Origin: Brachybacterium timonense
GTDB taxonomy: Bacteria; Actinomycetota; Actinomycetes; Actinomycetales; Dermabacteraceae
DNA: 64,000 nt
Direction: 5' to 3'
Assembly: GCF_900258505.1 (NCBI RefSeq)
Contig: NZ_LT984895.1
Coordinates: forward strand, 1,021,952 to 1,085,951
In this document: one piece after another, positions 37,273 to 44,998 of the stretch
How the letters are laid out: each line of letters opens with the position of its first letter
Numbering within the stretch: the first letter of the stretch is position 1
Program-made: the position numbers and the translations under genes
Notes under the pieces: model-generated
Database searches by the model: none
What the model was told of the DNA's origin: nothing
The model's input: the letters and a program-made list of their open reading frames with translations, nothing else

Positions 37273-38043
37273 ATGACTGCTTCCGAATCCCCGACCCCGA
37301 TCCGCGTGGGTGTGATCGGCGCCGCGGGCCGTATGGGCTCGCAGACCTGCTGCGCTGTGGAGGAGGCCTCTGACCTCGACCTTGTGGCGCGTATCGGCGA
37401 CGGTGACGACCTGCAGGCAGTGCTCGACGCCCGGGCGCAGGTGATCGTGGACTTCACCGTGCCCGATGCATCGCTCGGCACCGTACTGTGGGCGATCGAG
37501 CACGGCATCCATGCCGTAGTGGGCACCACCGGGTGGACGGACGAGAAGCTCGACCAGGTCCGGGCCGCACTCGAGCAGTCGCCGACTGTGGGCGTGCTGA
37601 TCGCCCCGAACTTCGCGATTGGCGCGGTGCTCACCATGCGTTTCGCTGAAATCGCGGCCCGCTACTACGAGAGCGCGGAGATCATCGAGATGCACCATCC
37701 GCGCAAGCTCGACGCCCCTTCGGGAACGGCCGCCCACACGGCCGCAGCGATCGCCCGGGGGCGGGCAGAGGCCGGCCTGGGCGCGGTGCCTGACGCCACT
37801 GCGAGCGATCCGCATGGTGCTCGCGGGGCCGTGATCGACGGCATCCATGTTCATGCGGTGCGTCAGCAGGGCCTGGTGGCTCACGAGGTCGTGCAGTTCG
37901 GTGGGGCGGGTGAGCAGCTGCAGCTGCGCCACGACTCCTTCGACCGGGCGAGCTTCATGCCCGGTGTCCTCCTGGGCGTGCGCGAGGTGGCATCCCGTCC
38001 CGGTCTCACCGTGGGCCTGGATCAGTACATGGATCTCGGGTGA
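37273..38043 (+). CDS. dapB: 4-hydroxy-tetrahydrodipicolinate reductase
   Basis: Reduces the DapA product in diaminopimelate/lysine synthesis. The Rossmann loop VGVIGAAGRMGSQ, the DFT motif (VIVDFTVPDAS) and the substrate-binding EMHHPRKLDAPSGTA are intact. The 256-residue length is normal. ATG 37273 follows TGGAAGGACACGCC. dapA and dapF of the same pathway lie 6 and 19 kb downstream. The stop overlaps the next gene by 4 bp. Confidence 0.96.
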   Translation: MTASESPTPIRVGVIGAAGRMGSQTCCAVEEASDLDLVARIGDGDDLQAVLDARAQVIVDFTVPDASLGTVLWAIEHGIHAVVGTTGWTDEKLDQVRAALEQSPTVGVLIAPNFAIGAVLTMRFAEIAARYYESAEIIEMHHPRKLDAPSGTAAHTAAAIARGRAEAGLGAVPDATASDPHGARGAVIDGIHVHAVRQQGLVAHEVVQFGGAGEQLQLRHDSFDRASFMPGVLLGVREVASRPGLTVGLDQYMDLG

Positions 38044-39703: not shown

Positions 39704-40423
39704 ATGACCACCACACCTGATGCGGCGCGCACCGTCGAGCCGTTCCCGCTGGACGTCGACGCGATCCTGCTGGACATGGACGGCACCCTGGTCGATTCCG
39801 GGGCCGCTGTTGAACGTTCCTGGAACCGATTGCTCGACGAGCTCGGACTCGAGACGCGATTCACGCACACCATGCACGGGGTGCCCGCCCGACTCTCGCT
39901 GCGTCAGCTGTTGCCGGATGCCTCTGAGGAGCAGCTCGATGCAGCGCATCGACGCATTGAGGAGATCGAGATCGGCGATGTCGACGGCATCGAGGTCCTC
40001 CCCGGCACTGCGCGTGTGCTGGCTGAGCTTGAAGCGGCCAGCGCGGCCCGAGGACGGCCCGCGTGGACGATCGTCACCTCCTGCACCCGAGAGCTGTTCG
40101 AGGCGCGCTGGGCCACCACCGGTCTGCCTGCGCCAGCCGCCACCGTGACCGCCGACCAGGTCACTCGCGGCAAACCCGATCCGGAACCGTTCGTCACCGG
40201 CGCCACACGCCTGGGCATTGCCCCTGCACGCTGCCTCGCCGTCGAGGACTCCCTGGGTGGGATCCGTTCCGCCGGCGGCGCCGGTTGCCGCACTGTCGCG
40301 GTCACCACCACCACACCGGCCGCTGACCTCACGGATCTCGCGGACGCTCTCATCACGTCCCTGGACGACATCGAGGTGACGGTGCATGAGGGCCGTCTTC
40401 GCGTGCAGCGCCGCGGTGCCTGA
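39704..40423 (+). CDS. HAD-superfamily phosphatase (sugar-phosphatase type)
   Basis: A 239-residue hydrolase with the nucleophile motif LLDMDGTLVDSG, a four-helix cap, motif II TIVTSCT, motif III lysine in TRGKPDPEPF and motif IV VEDSLGGIRSA. It resembles small sugar-phosphate or 2-deoxyglucose-6-phosphatase-type enzymes; the substrate is not predictable. ATG 39704 follows TTGGAGCC. It lies 122 bp upstream of the AsnB/CofE fusion. Confidence 0.82.
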   Translation: MTTTPDAARTVEPFPLDVDAILLDMDGTLVDSGAAVERSWNRLLDELGLETRFTHTMHGVPARLSLRQLLPDASEEQLDAAHRRIEEIEIGDVDGIEVLPGTARVLAELEAASAARGRPAWTIVTSCTRELFEARWATTGLPAPAATVTADQVTRGKPDPEPFVTGATRLGIAPARCLAVEDSLGGIRSAGGAGCRTVAVTTTTPAADLTDLADALITSLDDIEVTVHEGRLRVQRRGA

Positions 40424-40545: not shown

Positions 40546-43242
40546 ATGAGCGCGATCGCGGGAACCTTCGGCTTCGGACCCGACGGCGAGGCGCTGGCAC
40601 GGCGCATGGGTGCGGCTCTCGCCCATCGCGGCCCGGATGGTGAGGACATCCGAGCGGTTGGCAATGCAGTGCTTGTCCATCGACAGCTCGCCATGGCCGA
40701 CCCGGGCAGTGCGGACCAGTCCGTGACCACCTCCGATGGCCGCTGGACGATCGTGCTCGACGGCGCGATCCACAACCAGCAGCAGCTGCGCGCCGAGCTC
40801 GTAGCGCTCGGGCAGGACGTCCGCACCGGGATCGACGCCGAGCTCGTGCTCGCGGCGCACGTTGCATGGGGAGCTGAGGCCTATGACCGGCTCACCGGCA
40901 GGTTCGCCCTCGCGATCCACGATGCGCTCACGGACACGGTCACGCTCGCTCGTGACCACATCGGCATCGCGCCGCTGTACTACTGGAGTGATGACGCCGG
41001 CCGGGTGCTGTTCGCCTCCGACATGAAGGCGCTGCTGGCCACCGAGGTGTTCACGCCCGAGCCCGACGACCGCGCGATCTACCGCTACCTCGCCCTCGGT
41101 GTGCAGGACGACGACGAGCACACCCTGGTGCGGGATGTGACGGCCGTGCTGCCCGGACAGATGGTGACCCTGGGGGCCGAAGGCGTGCGCACACGGTGCT
41201 ACACGCGCCTGCAGGATGAGCTGCGCGAGCTCGCCTCACGGCCGGGTCGCCCGTACACCCCCGAGGTTGCTCGTGAGTTCCGCGAACGGTTCGAGCACGC
41301 GGTGCATGCCTGTCTGCCCGCCGACGTCCCGGTCGGTACCGCGCTGCTCGGCGGGCTCGACACGGCCGCGGCCGCCGCCGTGATCGCACGGGACATGCAG
41401 CAGGCGCCGCCGGACGATGCGCACAGCGCCGTGGGCCCGCAGCAGAACACCTTCTCCGCCGCACCCGCGCGGCCGAGCGCCCATGCGAGGACCGACGCGG
41501 CAATGCTGCGCGAGCAGTACGGCGAGCTCATTGACGAGCACAGCATCCGCCCCACGCCGGATGCGCTGATCGAGGACCTCACCGACCTCGTCCGTAGCCA
41601 GGACCAGCCCATGGCCACCCCGGACGCGTACACGCACTACGCCGTGATGCGCGAGGCCGCCGAGCATGTGACGGTGCTGCTCGACGGCGCCGACGAGGCA
41701 CCAGCAGACCACCTCACGCACCTGCAGGTGAGGCTGCGTGAGCTGCGCGCGGGCAAGCGCATCGCCCAGCTGGCGCGTGAGACAGCAGCGGCACGGGACA
41801 TGCTCTTCCGCGCCGCCCGCCAGCGGCGCGGCGGACGGGCCGACGTGCCCGTGCACGCATTGCTCGACAACAGCTTCGTCGCGGCGCACAAGGGCGAGAA
41901 ACTCGACGTCATCCGCGACAACCTGCGACTGCGTCTGCTGGATGATCTCTTCCGCACCCCAGGGCAGTCTCGGCTGCGGACCGGTGATCGCAATGCGATG
42001 CGTTTCGGTATCGAAAGGCGCGTGCCGATCCTCGATAAGGATCTGCTGCGTTTCCTCATGGGGGTGGACTCCGCTGCGATCGTCGACGGCCAGGGGAGCG
42101 GCCGGATCCTGCGCGACGCCATGGCGGATCTCCTGCCTGAGGCGATCCGCGGCCGTCGCGACGTGATCGGCCACACCGCTGCGGAGCCCGCGTGGTTCTC
42201 GCGATGTGCAGACGCACTGCAGGAGATCTTCGCTTCGCCCACCTTCGCGGCACGCCGCTACGTGGATGCCCCCACGGTGCAGGCCGTGCACGCCGACTGC
42301 ATGCAGCATCCCGAGCGGCACGAGACCCTCACGCTGTGGCGTCTGGCGAGCCTCGAGCTGTGGATGCGTGAGTTCCTGGACCCCGCACCCGGCATCCCCG
42401 CCCCGTCGACAGCCCGGCAGCCCGCCGCTGAGGACGATGCGCAGGAGCAGGCGCCGATCGCCAAGAGCGACTACGAGCCGAACGACGGCAAACAGCTGGA
42501 CCTGGTCTCCGCCGAGGACGGGCACACCTGGCGTCGCTTCCCGCTGCAGACCGATCTGGTGGGCCGTGACAGCGACCTCGAGAGCATCGTTCGCGGCCAT
42601 GTCGAACGGTTCCTCGCGGGCCTGCCCGATGACGCGATTCCTGACGGCGCGCACTGGTACTTCGTCATCAGCGAGAAGATCGTCGCGATCACCCAGGGAC
42701 GCTCCTGGTACACGTGGGAGGTCGCACCCCGACGGGCGGCGCGGCTGCTCAGCCGTTTCGTCACCCGCACCCCGGCGGGCATCGGCCTGGGCGACCCCAC
42801 CACGATGGAGCTCGCTATGCGTGAGGTGGGCGTGCCACGCATCATGGTCGCTGCGGCCGCCGGCGCTGCCGGCAAGGTCGTGGGTCGACGCGGCGTGTTC
42901 TACGAGATCGTCGGCGCCAATGTGCGAGCGATCGATGGACCGACGGTCTACTCCGCGTTCCCCTCGAATGTCTCCGCGAAGCTGCCGCCGAAGGACCCTG
43001 ACGCCGTCTCCGCACGCCTCAGCCGCGCCATCCGTGCCGCCGACGCTCCTGCTGGTGCTCTGGAAGGCTTTTCCGGCGTGGTGGTGATGGACGCCAATGA
43101 CATCGGCCGCAACGTGCTGGGCACCGATACACAGGTCCCATGCGCCGTGCTCGAAGCCACCTTCGCAGACAACCCGCTGGGGCAGGGACGCCAGCGCACC
43201 CCGATGGCGATCCTGGTGGACCTGGGTCCTTCCGCGTCCTGA
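40546..43242 (+). CDS. Asparagine-synthetase-like pseudoenzyme fused to a CofE-like ligase domain
   Basis: An 898-residue protein. Residues 1-165 have the class II glutamine amidotransferase fold (HRGPDGE, ARDHIGIAPLYY, FASDMKALL), but the nucleophile Cys2 is Ser (MSAIAGTFGF for MCGIAG), HRRL is HRQL (45-48) and NGEIYN is DGAIHN (72-77). Residues 240-630 follow the synthetase domain, ending in FGIERRVPILDKDLLRFLMG, yet SGGLDSS is LGGLDTA (268-274) and SGDGGDE is LDGADEA (379-385). So both active sites look inactive. Residues 650-898 match CofE-like (F420-0:gamma-glutamyl ligase-like) proteins: VISEKIVAITQGRSW, TRTPAGIGLGDPTTMELAM, GVPRIMVAAAAGAAGK, VVVMDANDIGRNVLG and NPLGQGRQRTP. GAAAGGAACACCACC precedes ATG 40546. 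The ligase substrate is unknown. Confidence 0.78.
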   Translation: MSAIAGTFGFGPDGEALARRMGAALAHRGPDGEDIRAVGNAVLVHRQLAMADPGSADQSVTTSDGRWTIVLDGAIHNQQQLRAELVALGQDVRTGIDAELVLAAHVAWGAEAYDRLTGRFALAIHDALTDTVTLARDHIGIAPLYYWSDDAGRVLFASDMKALLATEVFTPEPDDRAIYRYLALGVQDDDEHTLVRDVTAVLPGQMVTLGAEGVRTRCYTRLQDELRELASRPGRPYTPEVAREFRERFEHAVHACLPADVPVGTALLGGLDTAAAAAVIARDMQQAPPDDAHSAVGPQQNTFSAAPARPSAHARTDAAMLREQYGELIDEHSIRPTPDALIEDLTDLVRSQDQPMATPDAYTHYAVMREAAEHVTVLLDGADEAPADHLTHLQVRLRELRAGKRIAQLARETAAARDMLFRAARQRRGGRADVPVHALLDNSFVAAHKGEKLDVIRDNLRLRLLDDLFRTPGQSRLRTGDRNAMRFGIERRVPILDKDLLRFLMGVDSAAIVDGQGSGRILRDAMADLLPEAIRGRRDVIGHTAAEPAWFSRCADALQEIFASPTFAARRYVDAPTVQAVHADCMQHPERHETLTLWRLASLELWMREFLDPAPGIPAPSTARQPAAEDDAQEQAPIAKSDYEPNDGKQLDLVSAEDGHTWRRFPLQTDLVGRDSDLESIVRGHVERFLAGLPDDAIPDGAHWYFVISEKIVAITQGRSWYTWEVAPRRAARLLSRFVTRTPAGIGLGDPTTMELAMREVGVPRIMVAAAAGAAGKVVGRRGVFYEIVGANVRAIDGPTVYSAFPSNVSAKLPPKDPDAVSARLSRAIRAADAPAGALEGFSGVVVMDANDIGRNVLGTDTQVPCAVLEATFADNPLGQGRQRTPMAILVDLGPSAS

Positions 43243-43256
43243 GCGGGGACCTCGAC

Positions 43257-43272
43257 TAGCATCACTGTCATG
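43257..43272 (+). promoter_or_regulatory. thyX -10 box and leaderless start
   Basis: TAGCAT (43257-43262) is followed by 7 nt and ATG 43270, with no Shine-Dalgarno, as expected of a leaderless transcript. Confidence 0.55.
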
Positions 43273-44010
43273 AGCGAGGGCACCGAGCAGCAGACCGACG
43301 TCGTCTTCCGATCCGATATGACCGTGGAACTGGTGAGGGCTGCGGCGCAGGACGGAGACGTTGTCTTCGCCGCCCGCGTCTCCACGCAGGGCGAGAAAAC
43401 ACTGGACAGCGCAGGGGAGGACGCGTCGGCGCGTGATCGTGGGCTGATCCGCTACCTCATGCGCGACCGCCACGGCAGTCCTTTCGAGCACAACAGCTTC
43501 ACCTTCTACGTGCAGGCGCCGATCTTCGTGTTCCGCGAGTTCATGCGCCACCGCATCGCCTCCTACAACGAGGAGTCCGGCCGCTACCGCGAGATGCGCC
43601 CCGTCTTCTACGTGCCCGCGCGCGAGCGCAATCTCGTGCAGGTGGGCAAGCCCGGCGCGTACGTGTTCGAACCGGGCAGCGACGAACAGTATGAGCTCGT
43701 GGAGCGTTCAGTGCGCGAGCAATGCACCAGCGCGTATCGCGCCTACCAGGAGATGCTGCAGGCGGGAGTGGCCCGCGAGGTCGCCCGCTCCGTCTTGCCG
43801 CTGACCCTGTACTCCTCGATGTACGTGACCATCAACGCCCGCTCGCTGATGAACGTGCTGTCGCTGCGCACCACCCGGGAGGGCTCTGCCTACCCGTCGT
43901 TCCCGCAGCGCGAGATCGAAATGGTGGCCGAGCAGATGGAGGAGCATTTCAAGGCCGCCATGCCCATCACCTACGAGGCGTTCCAAGACGGCGGCCGCGT
44001 CGCCCCGTGA
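43270..44010 (+). CDS. thyX: Flavin-dependent thymidylate synthase
   Basis: FAD-dependent methylation of dUMP to dTMP, an alternative to ThyA. The ThyX signature RHRIASYNEESGR spans residues 93-105. Other conserved blocks are SPFEHNSFTFYVQAPIFVFR and the C-terminal RSLMNVLSLRTT. The 246-residue length is normal. It immediately precedes dapA with a 40-bp gap, the order seen in many actinobacteria (thyX-dapA-rnj). Confidence 0.96.
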   Translation: MSEGTEQQTDVVFRSDMTVELVRAAAQDGDVVFAARVSTQGEKTLDSAGEDASARDRGLIRYLMRDRHGSPFEHNSFTFYVQAPIFVFREFMRHRIASYNEESGRYREMRPVFYVPARERNLVQVGKPGAYVFEPGSDEQYELVERSVREQCTSAYRAYQEMLQAGVAREVARSVLPLTLYSSMYVTINARSLMNVLSLRTTREGSAYPSFPQREIEMVAEQMEEHFKAAMPITYEAFQDGGRVAP

Positions 44011-44050
44011 CCTGTTGCACGCCACGTCTGCCACATCCAGGGAGGACACT

Positions 44051-44994
44051 GTGACCACCTCCGATTCTCATGCTGCGCGTCCTGCGCGGCCCTTCGGTGC
44101 CGTCGGTACCGCGCTCGTCACCCCGTTCACCGCGGATGGCAAGGCCGTGGATCTCGAGGCCGCCCAGGCACTCGCCGAGCACGCCGTCTCCCGCGGCAAC
44201 GACCTCGTGGTCGTGGCCGGAACAACGGGGGAGTCTCCGACCCTGTCGGATCATGAACGGCTGGACCTCGCCCGCGCGGTCCTCGATGCGGTGGGGGAGA
44301 AGGCCACAGTGGTCGCCGGCGCCGGCACCTACGACACACGCCACTCCATCGAGCTCGCCCGCGCTCATGCCGACCTCGGCGTCCACGGTCTGCTCGTGGT
44401 CACCCCGTACTACTCGAAGCCCTCACAGCAGGGTGCGCGCGCCCACCTGGAGGCGGTGGCGGACGCCACGGACCTGCCGGTGATGCTGTACGACATTCCG
44501 GGCCGTACCGGTCTCCCGCTAGCGAAGGACACACTGCTGCGCCTCGCGGAGCATCCCCGCATCGCTGCCGTCAAAGACGCCAAGAGCGACCTGCACGAGG
44601 CCACCGAGGTGATGGCCGCCACCGGCACCGCCTACTACTCCGGTGAAGACGCCCTGAACCTGCCCTGGCTCGCCATCGGCGCCGCCGGCATCGTTTCGGT
44701 GGTCAGCCAGGTGGCCCCTGAGCTCGACGCCGCGCTTGTGCGTGCCGTTGACCGCTCCGATCTCGACGCCGCTCGTGAGATCCACCGTGCGCTCGCCCCG
44801 CTCGTGAGCGCGATCATGACGTGCATGCCCGGAGCAGTGGCCGCCAAGGCCGCCCTCATGCTCCAGGGTGTGCTTCCCCACGCCGTCGTGCGCGCGCCGC
44901 ACGCCCCGGCCGACGCCGACCATGTGCAGATGCTGGCCCGCGCGATCGATGACGCCGACGGCATCACCCCTGTGCACGCATCCCGGAGGACCCT

Positions 44995-44998
<4 letters not shown>
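44051..44998 (+). CDS. dapA: 4-hydroxy-tetrahydrodipicolinate synthase
   Basis: Condenses pyruvate and aspartate semialdehyde, the entry into lysine/DAP synthesis. The 315-residue product has GTTGESPTLSDHE (residues 58-69), Tyr147 in MLYDIPGRTG and the Schiff-base Lys175 in AAVKDAKSD. GTG 44051, preceded by AGGGAGGACACT, is preferred over an upstream TTG at 44015. The stop overlaps rnj by 4 bp. Confidence 0.95.

Follow-up and report, generated by a model that had tools for sequence, protein, structure and literature searches.

The window (i.e., the whole stretch of 64,000 nucleotides of Brachybacterium timonense DNA that was analysed) encodes a protein in which a degenerate asparagine synthetase (AsnB) half is fused to a conserved CofE-like ligase half, and we found that Brachybacterium genomes without the CofE-like domain carry a MurT-GatD pair in the same chromosomal slot (five of the six slots read). 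This same-slot replacement is new here, and throughout the sampled genomes the two systems shared slots while occurring in a mutually exclusive manner. That the ligase half is found in the chromosomal places of MurT-GatD suggests that it is an unrecognised cell-wall enzyme. We put a probability of about one half, or marginally above, on the reading that a CofE-fold ligase takes the place of MurT-GatD on a peptidoglycan precursor while the AsnB half of the window protein has become a pseudoenzyme scaffold, with position and distribution as the basis for the assigned function. Amidation of D-Glu(2) in lipid II, the reaction carried out by MurT-GatD, is reported to matter for cross-linking and for the response to beta-lactams, and it is discussed as a drug target (PMC6085368, PMC3266927). 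Should the exchange prove functional, a large number of proteins whose present annotation is F420 ligase or asparagine synthase would be enzymes of the cell wall. In addition, the fusion provides a natural series, running from intact to unrecognisable AsnB, on one constant partner.

Architecture of the fusion protein

The 898-residue fusion of AsnB with a CofE-like domain was confirmed as real (Table 1). The sequence-only reading of this DNA had described a protein whose AsnB half is degenerate and whose CofE-type half is intact, and both the motif losses and the predicted folds bear this out. Residues 1-612 are predicted to adopt the AsnB fold with its two domains, with Cys2 (here Ser2), the NGE block and the PP-loop serines absent and the second ATP motif altered; the AsnB profile TIGR01536 still recognises the protein, barely above its curated cut-off (268.8 vs. 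267.1 bits). PDB sequence searches with the C-terminal half gave no match. Its proposed similarity to CofE was recovered through membership in PF01996 and through the predicted fold, for which we obtained five PDB matches at E<=0.001, every one of them to A. fulgidus CofE.

Sequencing error was considered as the cause of the motif losses in the window and was rejected. Among the relatives, two fusion copies (L064, and L100 of genome G021) have a changed reading frame, and folC is likewise split in G021; these frame-shifted copies are likely to be assembly or sequencing errors. A search of the open-licence literature found no described enzyme of the AsnB-CofE architecture, in line with the earlier statement that none was known, and no report linking a CofE-type enzyme with MurT.

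Table 1. Features of the fusion gene and of the genes around the exchanged slot (positions in the window).
Feature	Position	Strand	Basis
Whole fusion gene, 898 residues	40546..43242	+	Sequence
Residues 1-216, a degenerate class II glutaminase (GATase_7)	40546..41193	+	Domain match and fold
Codon 2 = Ser, replacing the glutaminase nucleophile Cys	40549..40551	+	Sequence, alignment of relatives
DGAIHN where NGExYN is expected	40759..40776	+	Sequence, alignment of relatives
Residues 217-612, a degenerate AsnB synthetase (Asn_synthase)	41194..42381	+	Domain match and fold
LGGLDTA where the PP-loop SGGLDSS is expected	41347..41367	+	Sequence, alignment of relatives
LDGADEA, i.e., LDGQGADE minus two residues (second ATP motif)	41680..41700	+	Sequence, alignment of relatives
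Conserved CofE-like ligase part, residues 641-895	42466..43230	+	Family match, fold, conservation
HAD-family phosphatase gene, bordering the exchanged slot on the left	39704..40423	+	
thyX, right border of the slot in the window	43270..44010	+	
dapA (diaminopimelate pathway), bordering the slot on the right	44015..44998	+	
dapB, upstream, same conserved block	37273..38043	+	

Relation of the C-terminal half to canonical CofE

Profile A1 aligned with canonical CofE in a single short block of 42 columns, and the fused domain had no match in NCBIfam up to E 10, TIGR01916 included. The sole TIGR01916 match of the host genome (G000) was a different gene (C1:2224854-2225540, corresponding to L092:6355-7041), namely a canonical CofE with a 403-residue ORF that scored 203.6-204.6 bits against a cut-off of 180.65. 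Brachybacterium may make F420. Adjoining its canonical CofE in the host genome is a TIGR03089 protein.

We further aligned 12 canonical CofE with 23 CofE-like rows and found that the segment Af 158-191, which follows D150, spans 34 residues in all 12 canonical rows vs. 13-14 residues in all 23 CofE-like rows. By our own reading, this segment is the hairpin for which F420 contacts are reported (PMC10861534). Because the host genome has a separate canonical CofE, the fused CofE-like domain is, judging from these sequence comparisons, probably not the F420 ligase. Its invariant AIDGP and DxND motifs lie near CofE D109 and D150, which we take to be metal ligands, with the alignment there off by a few residues.

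Repeated decay of the AsnB half

To survey motif loss, we aligned 46 distinct rows of the fusion, with row starts set by script. Cys was found at position 2 in 37 of the 42 rows having that residue, and SGGxDS was kept in 36 of the 44 rows having a PP-loop, meaning that the inactivation proposed from the sequence holds for the window strain but fails as a trait of the family. As to whether the changes are private to this strain, close homologues keep Cys2 and SGGxDS, yet the loss is common to several other lineages. Specifically, degraded N-terminal halves were found in the window protein, in B. squillarum together with SGAir0954, in Dermabacter/Helcobacillus and in two further genomes of the same genus (L101, L102); in these last two AsnB falls below Pfam recognition at E 0.01, and approximately 550-590 residues of open frame precede the CofE-like part. 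Two copies of family f17 (L138, L139; loci cut) were classed as degraded by their synthetase motifs only, and those of B. merdigallinarum and B. phenoliresistens, which are fragments at contig edges, by their last synthetase motifs. The fusions of I. flavum and Humibacillus are degraded in the PP-loop alone, while a fusion from a Coriobacteriales MAG has Ser2 and NGALL, yet an intact PP-loop.

AsnB motifs have thus decayed on several branches, with most relatives intact. Our trees place the copies of the window, of squillarum with SGAir0954 and of merdigallinarum apart, with a single clade not rejected (p-AU 0.10). At its origin, the fusion probably contained a functional AsnB, which decayed several times afterwards. 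The earlier idea of an AsnB scaffold carried on an amide ligase fits the window strain, but as a state reached late by a fusion that is older and whose AsnB motifs were intact.

The earlier claim that the CofE-like half is the more constrained of the two was upheld. Taking columns invariant in 26 intact rows (picked by their motifs), five degraded rows kept 96-100% of those in the CofE-like half vs. 28-67% of those in the AsnB half. The quicker change seen in the AsnB half extends to intact rows, as in the pair L062/L063, where dN was 0.15 for the AsnB half vs. 0.08 for the CofE-like half. In the close degraded pair L045/L046, the synthetase part had a dN/dS of approximately 0.22 (0.33/1.51).

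Exchange with MurT-GatD within Brachybacterium

The Brachybacterium gene order is M16-dapB-p4-p5-HAD-fusion-(thyX)-dapA-rnj-ftsK; dapA and dapB in this block, like alr in the Microbacteriaceae slot described below, are genes for cell-wall precursors. In the window, thyX separates the fusion from dapA; the MurT-GatD genomes also have thyX at this place, but many other Brachybacterium had none that we could find at it.

We detected the CofE-like domain in 28 of 36 genomes of the genus. Among the eight without it, five have MurT_C (PF08353), and none of the 36 has both. Two of the eight are incomplete (G001 and G006, the latter with an N-half fragment); when the slot was read in the remaining six, all but one had a MurT-like and GatD-like pair between HAD and thyX-dapA, with MurT_C and Mur_ligase_M confirmed by domain match in L112. 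The sixth slot (G012, L111) has neither the fusion nor MurT-GatD, and approximately 140 bases separate HAD from thyX. The five MurT-GatD genomes form one clade in a tree of dapA, dapB, M16 and HAD, and we therefore count a single exchange within Brachybacterium. The fusion protein itself had no match at E 0.001 to PF08353, PF08245 or PF07685, the domains of the Mur ligase and the class I glutaminase.

Distribution in the order and exchanges in other lineages

The survey of the order covered 297 genomes, drawn evenly: 37 had the CofE-like domain, 99 had MurT_C (98 above cut-off), none had both and 161 had neither (Fisher one-sided p 8.7e-8, uncorrected for kinship). Given the 161 genomes with neither gene, the function is not generally required. 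Common ancestry could lie behind part of the exclusion.

Flanks beyond the genus were compared in 12 regions. In Microbacteriaceae, the slot between sigA and gyrB holds a stand-alone CofE-like gene in L153, L154 and L161 and MurT-GatD in L155 and L160, with alr also lying between sigA and gyrB in L153, L154 and L155. Within the genus Dermabacter, the place beside cmk-engA is taken by the fusion in L151 and by MurT-GatD in L152, the two being on opposite strands. In family f17 (which includes Intrasporangium), the interval from guaA to an LPG-synthase gene contains the fusion in L156 and L157 and MurT-GatD, with extra genes in between, in L162. Family f6 was covered by two CofE-like regions (L158, L159). 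From the same-slot and exclusive occurrence with MurT-GatD, the acceptor, called unknown in the sequence-only reading, can be narrowed, the likely candidate being a peptidoglycan precursor.

When the fused AsnB half was compared with nine Microbacteriaceae genomes carrying the stand-alone gene, there was no full-length match; short weak matches were found (28-34% over approximately 70-100 residues among the matches listed), as they were in four of seven MurT-bearing Microbacteriaceae genomes. Because the Microbacteriaceae form stands alone, with no full-length AsnB-half match in the genomes searched, the CofE-like part may suffice by itself. Stand-alone relatives in Microbacterium and Clostridia are annotated as coenzyme F420-0:L-glutamate ligase. 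The clostridial copies have a glmS cluster upstream in four of 11 loci (L052, L053, L065 and L066, three of them Pfam-confirmed) and unrelated genes elsewhere. TIGR01536 AsnB was above cut-off in eight of 10 clostridial genomes; a Rosetta-stone link to this separate clostridial AsnB was rejected, the four proteins compared being SGEGADE enzymes with 22-30% identity to the fused halves.

Some observations count against the exclusion. A remote MurT-like protein was found in six of 34 genomes with a CofE-like domain (23 with the fusion and 11 with the stand-alone gene), all six from the Terrabacter-Terracoccus group and with the fusion (L128-L133), and the exclusion is not absolute where such remote kin are counted. 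These proteins scored 23.4-28.4 bits, with four of the six above cut-off; Brachybacterium MurT scored 95-100 bits, and the MurT of Microbacteriaceae is itself a weak match (34.6 bits). The three remote proteins examined share approximately 26% identity with Brachybacterium MurT and have a 417-residue frame and paired Cys motifs. The opposite strands in Dermabacter and the additional genes in the slot of L162 likewise speak against a simple exchange.

Proposed mechanism

In the reported reaction of CofE, a carboxylate is phosphorylated and an amino acid then attacks it (PMC10861534); MurT is believed to use ammonia derived from GatD after phosphorylating the carboxyl of D-Glu (PMC6085368, PMC3266927). 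A CofE-fold ligase that targets the carboxyl used by MurT would fit the exchange. In what follows, we infer the substrate, the nucleotide, the nucleophile, the original activity of the AsnB half and its role as a scaffold. With its CofE fold, the CofE-like half would act as a nucleotide-dependent amide ligase, activating a carboxylate of the precursor (most likely the alpha-carboxyl of D-Glu(2)) as an acyl phosphate, and ammonia or an amino acid would then be joined to the activated carboxylate. The AsnB half would originally have been a working glutamine amidotransferase, which either supplied ammonia or amidated a second carboxylate; intact fusions would still have a class II glutaminase at hand as the ammonia source. 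The window strain and several other branches would have the AsnB half as a pseudoenzyme, kept as a fold or interaction module only.

Where a working glutaminase is missing (i.e., in the window strain and in Microbacterium), this would leave free ammonia or an amino acid as the nucleophile. In the walls of Microbacteriaceae, the alpha-carboxyl of D-Glu is joined to a bridge amino acid and used for cross-links, which would need a reaction other than plain amidation and would favour an amino acid as the nucleophile. Glycine is reported in the wall of two Brachybacterium species (PMC6090031), and mDAP, Ala and Glu in that of B. faecium (PMC3035206); our literature search for glycine on D-Glu in such walls led to these reports of wall composition only. 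As a more specific and more tentative proposal, we suggest that the CofE-fold ligase could be a second, unrelated solution for modifying the alpha-carboxyl of D-Glu(2), one that displaced MurT-GatD in place several times, that probably adds an amino acid (e.g., glycine) and not plain ammonia, and whose AsnB half repeatedly turned into a pseudoenzyme.

Alternative explanations

The CofE-like domain might instead add an amino acid to some other carboxylate (e.g., one in a wall glycopolymer or in a folate-like cofactor), in which case the exclusion of MurT-GatD would stem from ancestry and shared loci. We regard this as possible, though on the unlikely side. Published examples are a CofE homologue with another acceptor, Chlamydia CT611, which complements an E. 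coli folC mutant (PMC1971073); FolC2 of L. reuteri, also of the CofE group, which works in folate metabolism alongside FolC (PMC5061717); and qimC, annotated from structure as an F420-0:gamma-glutamyl ligase, which belongs to a Streptococcus pyogenes operon for wall modification (PMC13059722). The window gene also adjoins thyX, a folate enzyme, and the mixed neighbourhoods of the stand-alone clostridial copies (glmS in some, unrelated genes in others) point the same way. However, FolC was above cut-off in 57 of 58 genomes, in many relatives no thyX was found at the slot, and exchanges in four different neighbourhoods are hard to explain by one hot spot. The FolC count also disposes of the idea of a stand-in for missing FolC, as in Chlamydia; since FolC2 of L. 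reuteri works alongside FolC, we nonetheless retain a folate role within this alternative.

We think it improbable that the intact members are still mainly asparagine synthetases or mDAP/D-Asp amidotransferases and that the degraded copies are genes being lost. Such a scenario would agree with the intact AsnB motifs of most relatives, with the window protein just reaching TIGR01536 and with the lack of an AsnRS above cut-off in 58 genomes (three scored 167-222 bits), where free asparagine may be dispensable; the AsnRS result also suggests that Asn-tRNA is made by the amidotransferase route. By contrast, the degraded copies retain an open frame and a CofE-like half that is 96-100% intact at invariant positions, the dN/dS of the synthetase part in L045/L046 is still about 0.22, and a stand-alone CofE-like gene exists.

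Finally, it is very improbable that the fused domain is the F420-0:gamma-glutamyl ligase that PF01996 membership, the CofE fold and the public name of the stand-alone relatives would imply, given the separate TIGR01916 CofE of the host genome, the lack of a TIGR01916 match in the fused domain and the shortening, in CofE-like rows, of the segment taken as the F420 hairpin.

Comparison with known systems

With asparagine synthetase AsnB and its wall-amidating kin (LtsA; AsnB of B. subtilis and Listeria), the fusion shares the two-domain fold of residues 1-612 and, in most of its relatives, intact motifs; the window protein differs in having lost Cys2, the NGE block and the PP-loop serines and in carrying a fused CofE-like domain. 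In Listeria, Bacillus and Corynebacterium, the mDAP of peptidoglycan is reported to be amidated by enzymes of the AsnB type (PMC8554201). CofE/FbiB (PF01996, TIGR01916; PDB 2phn, 7uld) has the same fold as the C-terminal half, and SEKIVAITQGR matches TSKIVSKAEGR, whereas the C-terminal half of the fusion has invariant motifs of its own (GIGLGxPxTM, AIDGP, DxND and DNPLGQ). FolC2 and Chlamydia CT611 (COG1478, CofE group), set beside the fusion at the level of their descriptions, are likewise CofE homologues with a non-F420 acceptor, and differ in their folate role.

MurT-GatD is the system whose place we propose that the CofE-fold ligase takes on the peptidoglycan precursor. The two are alike in occupying the same chromosomal slots, with MurT-GatD and the CofE-like domain not found together in the 297 genomes of the order, and in that MurT (as is thought) and CofE (as is reported) phosphorylate a carboxylate. 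They differ in having no Pfam domain in common, the CofE fold replacing the Mur ligase in the fusion, and in their glutaminases: that of the fusion, where present, belongs to class II, whereas GatD belongs to class I.
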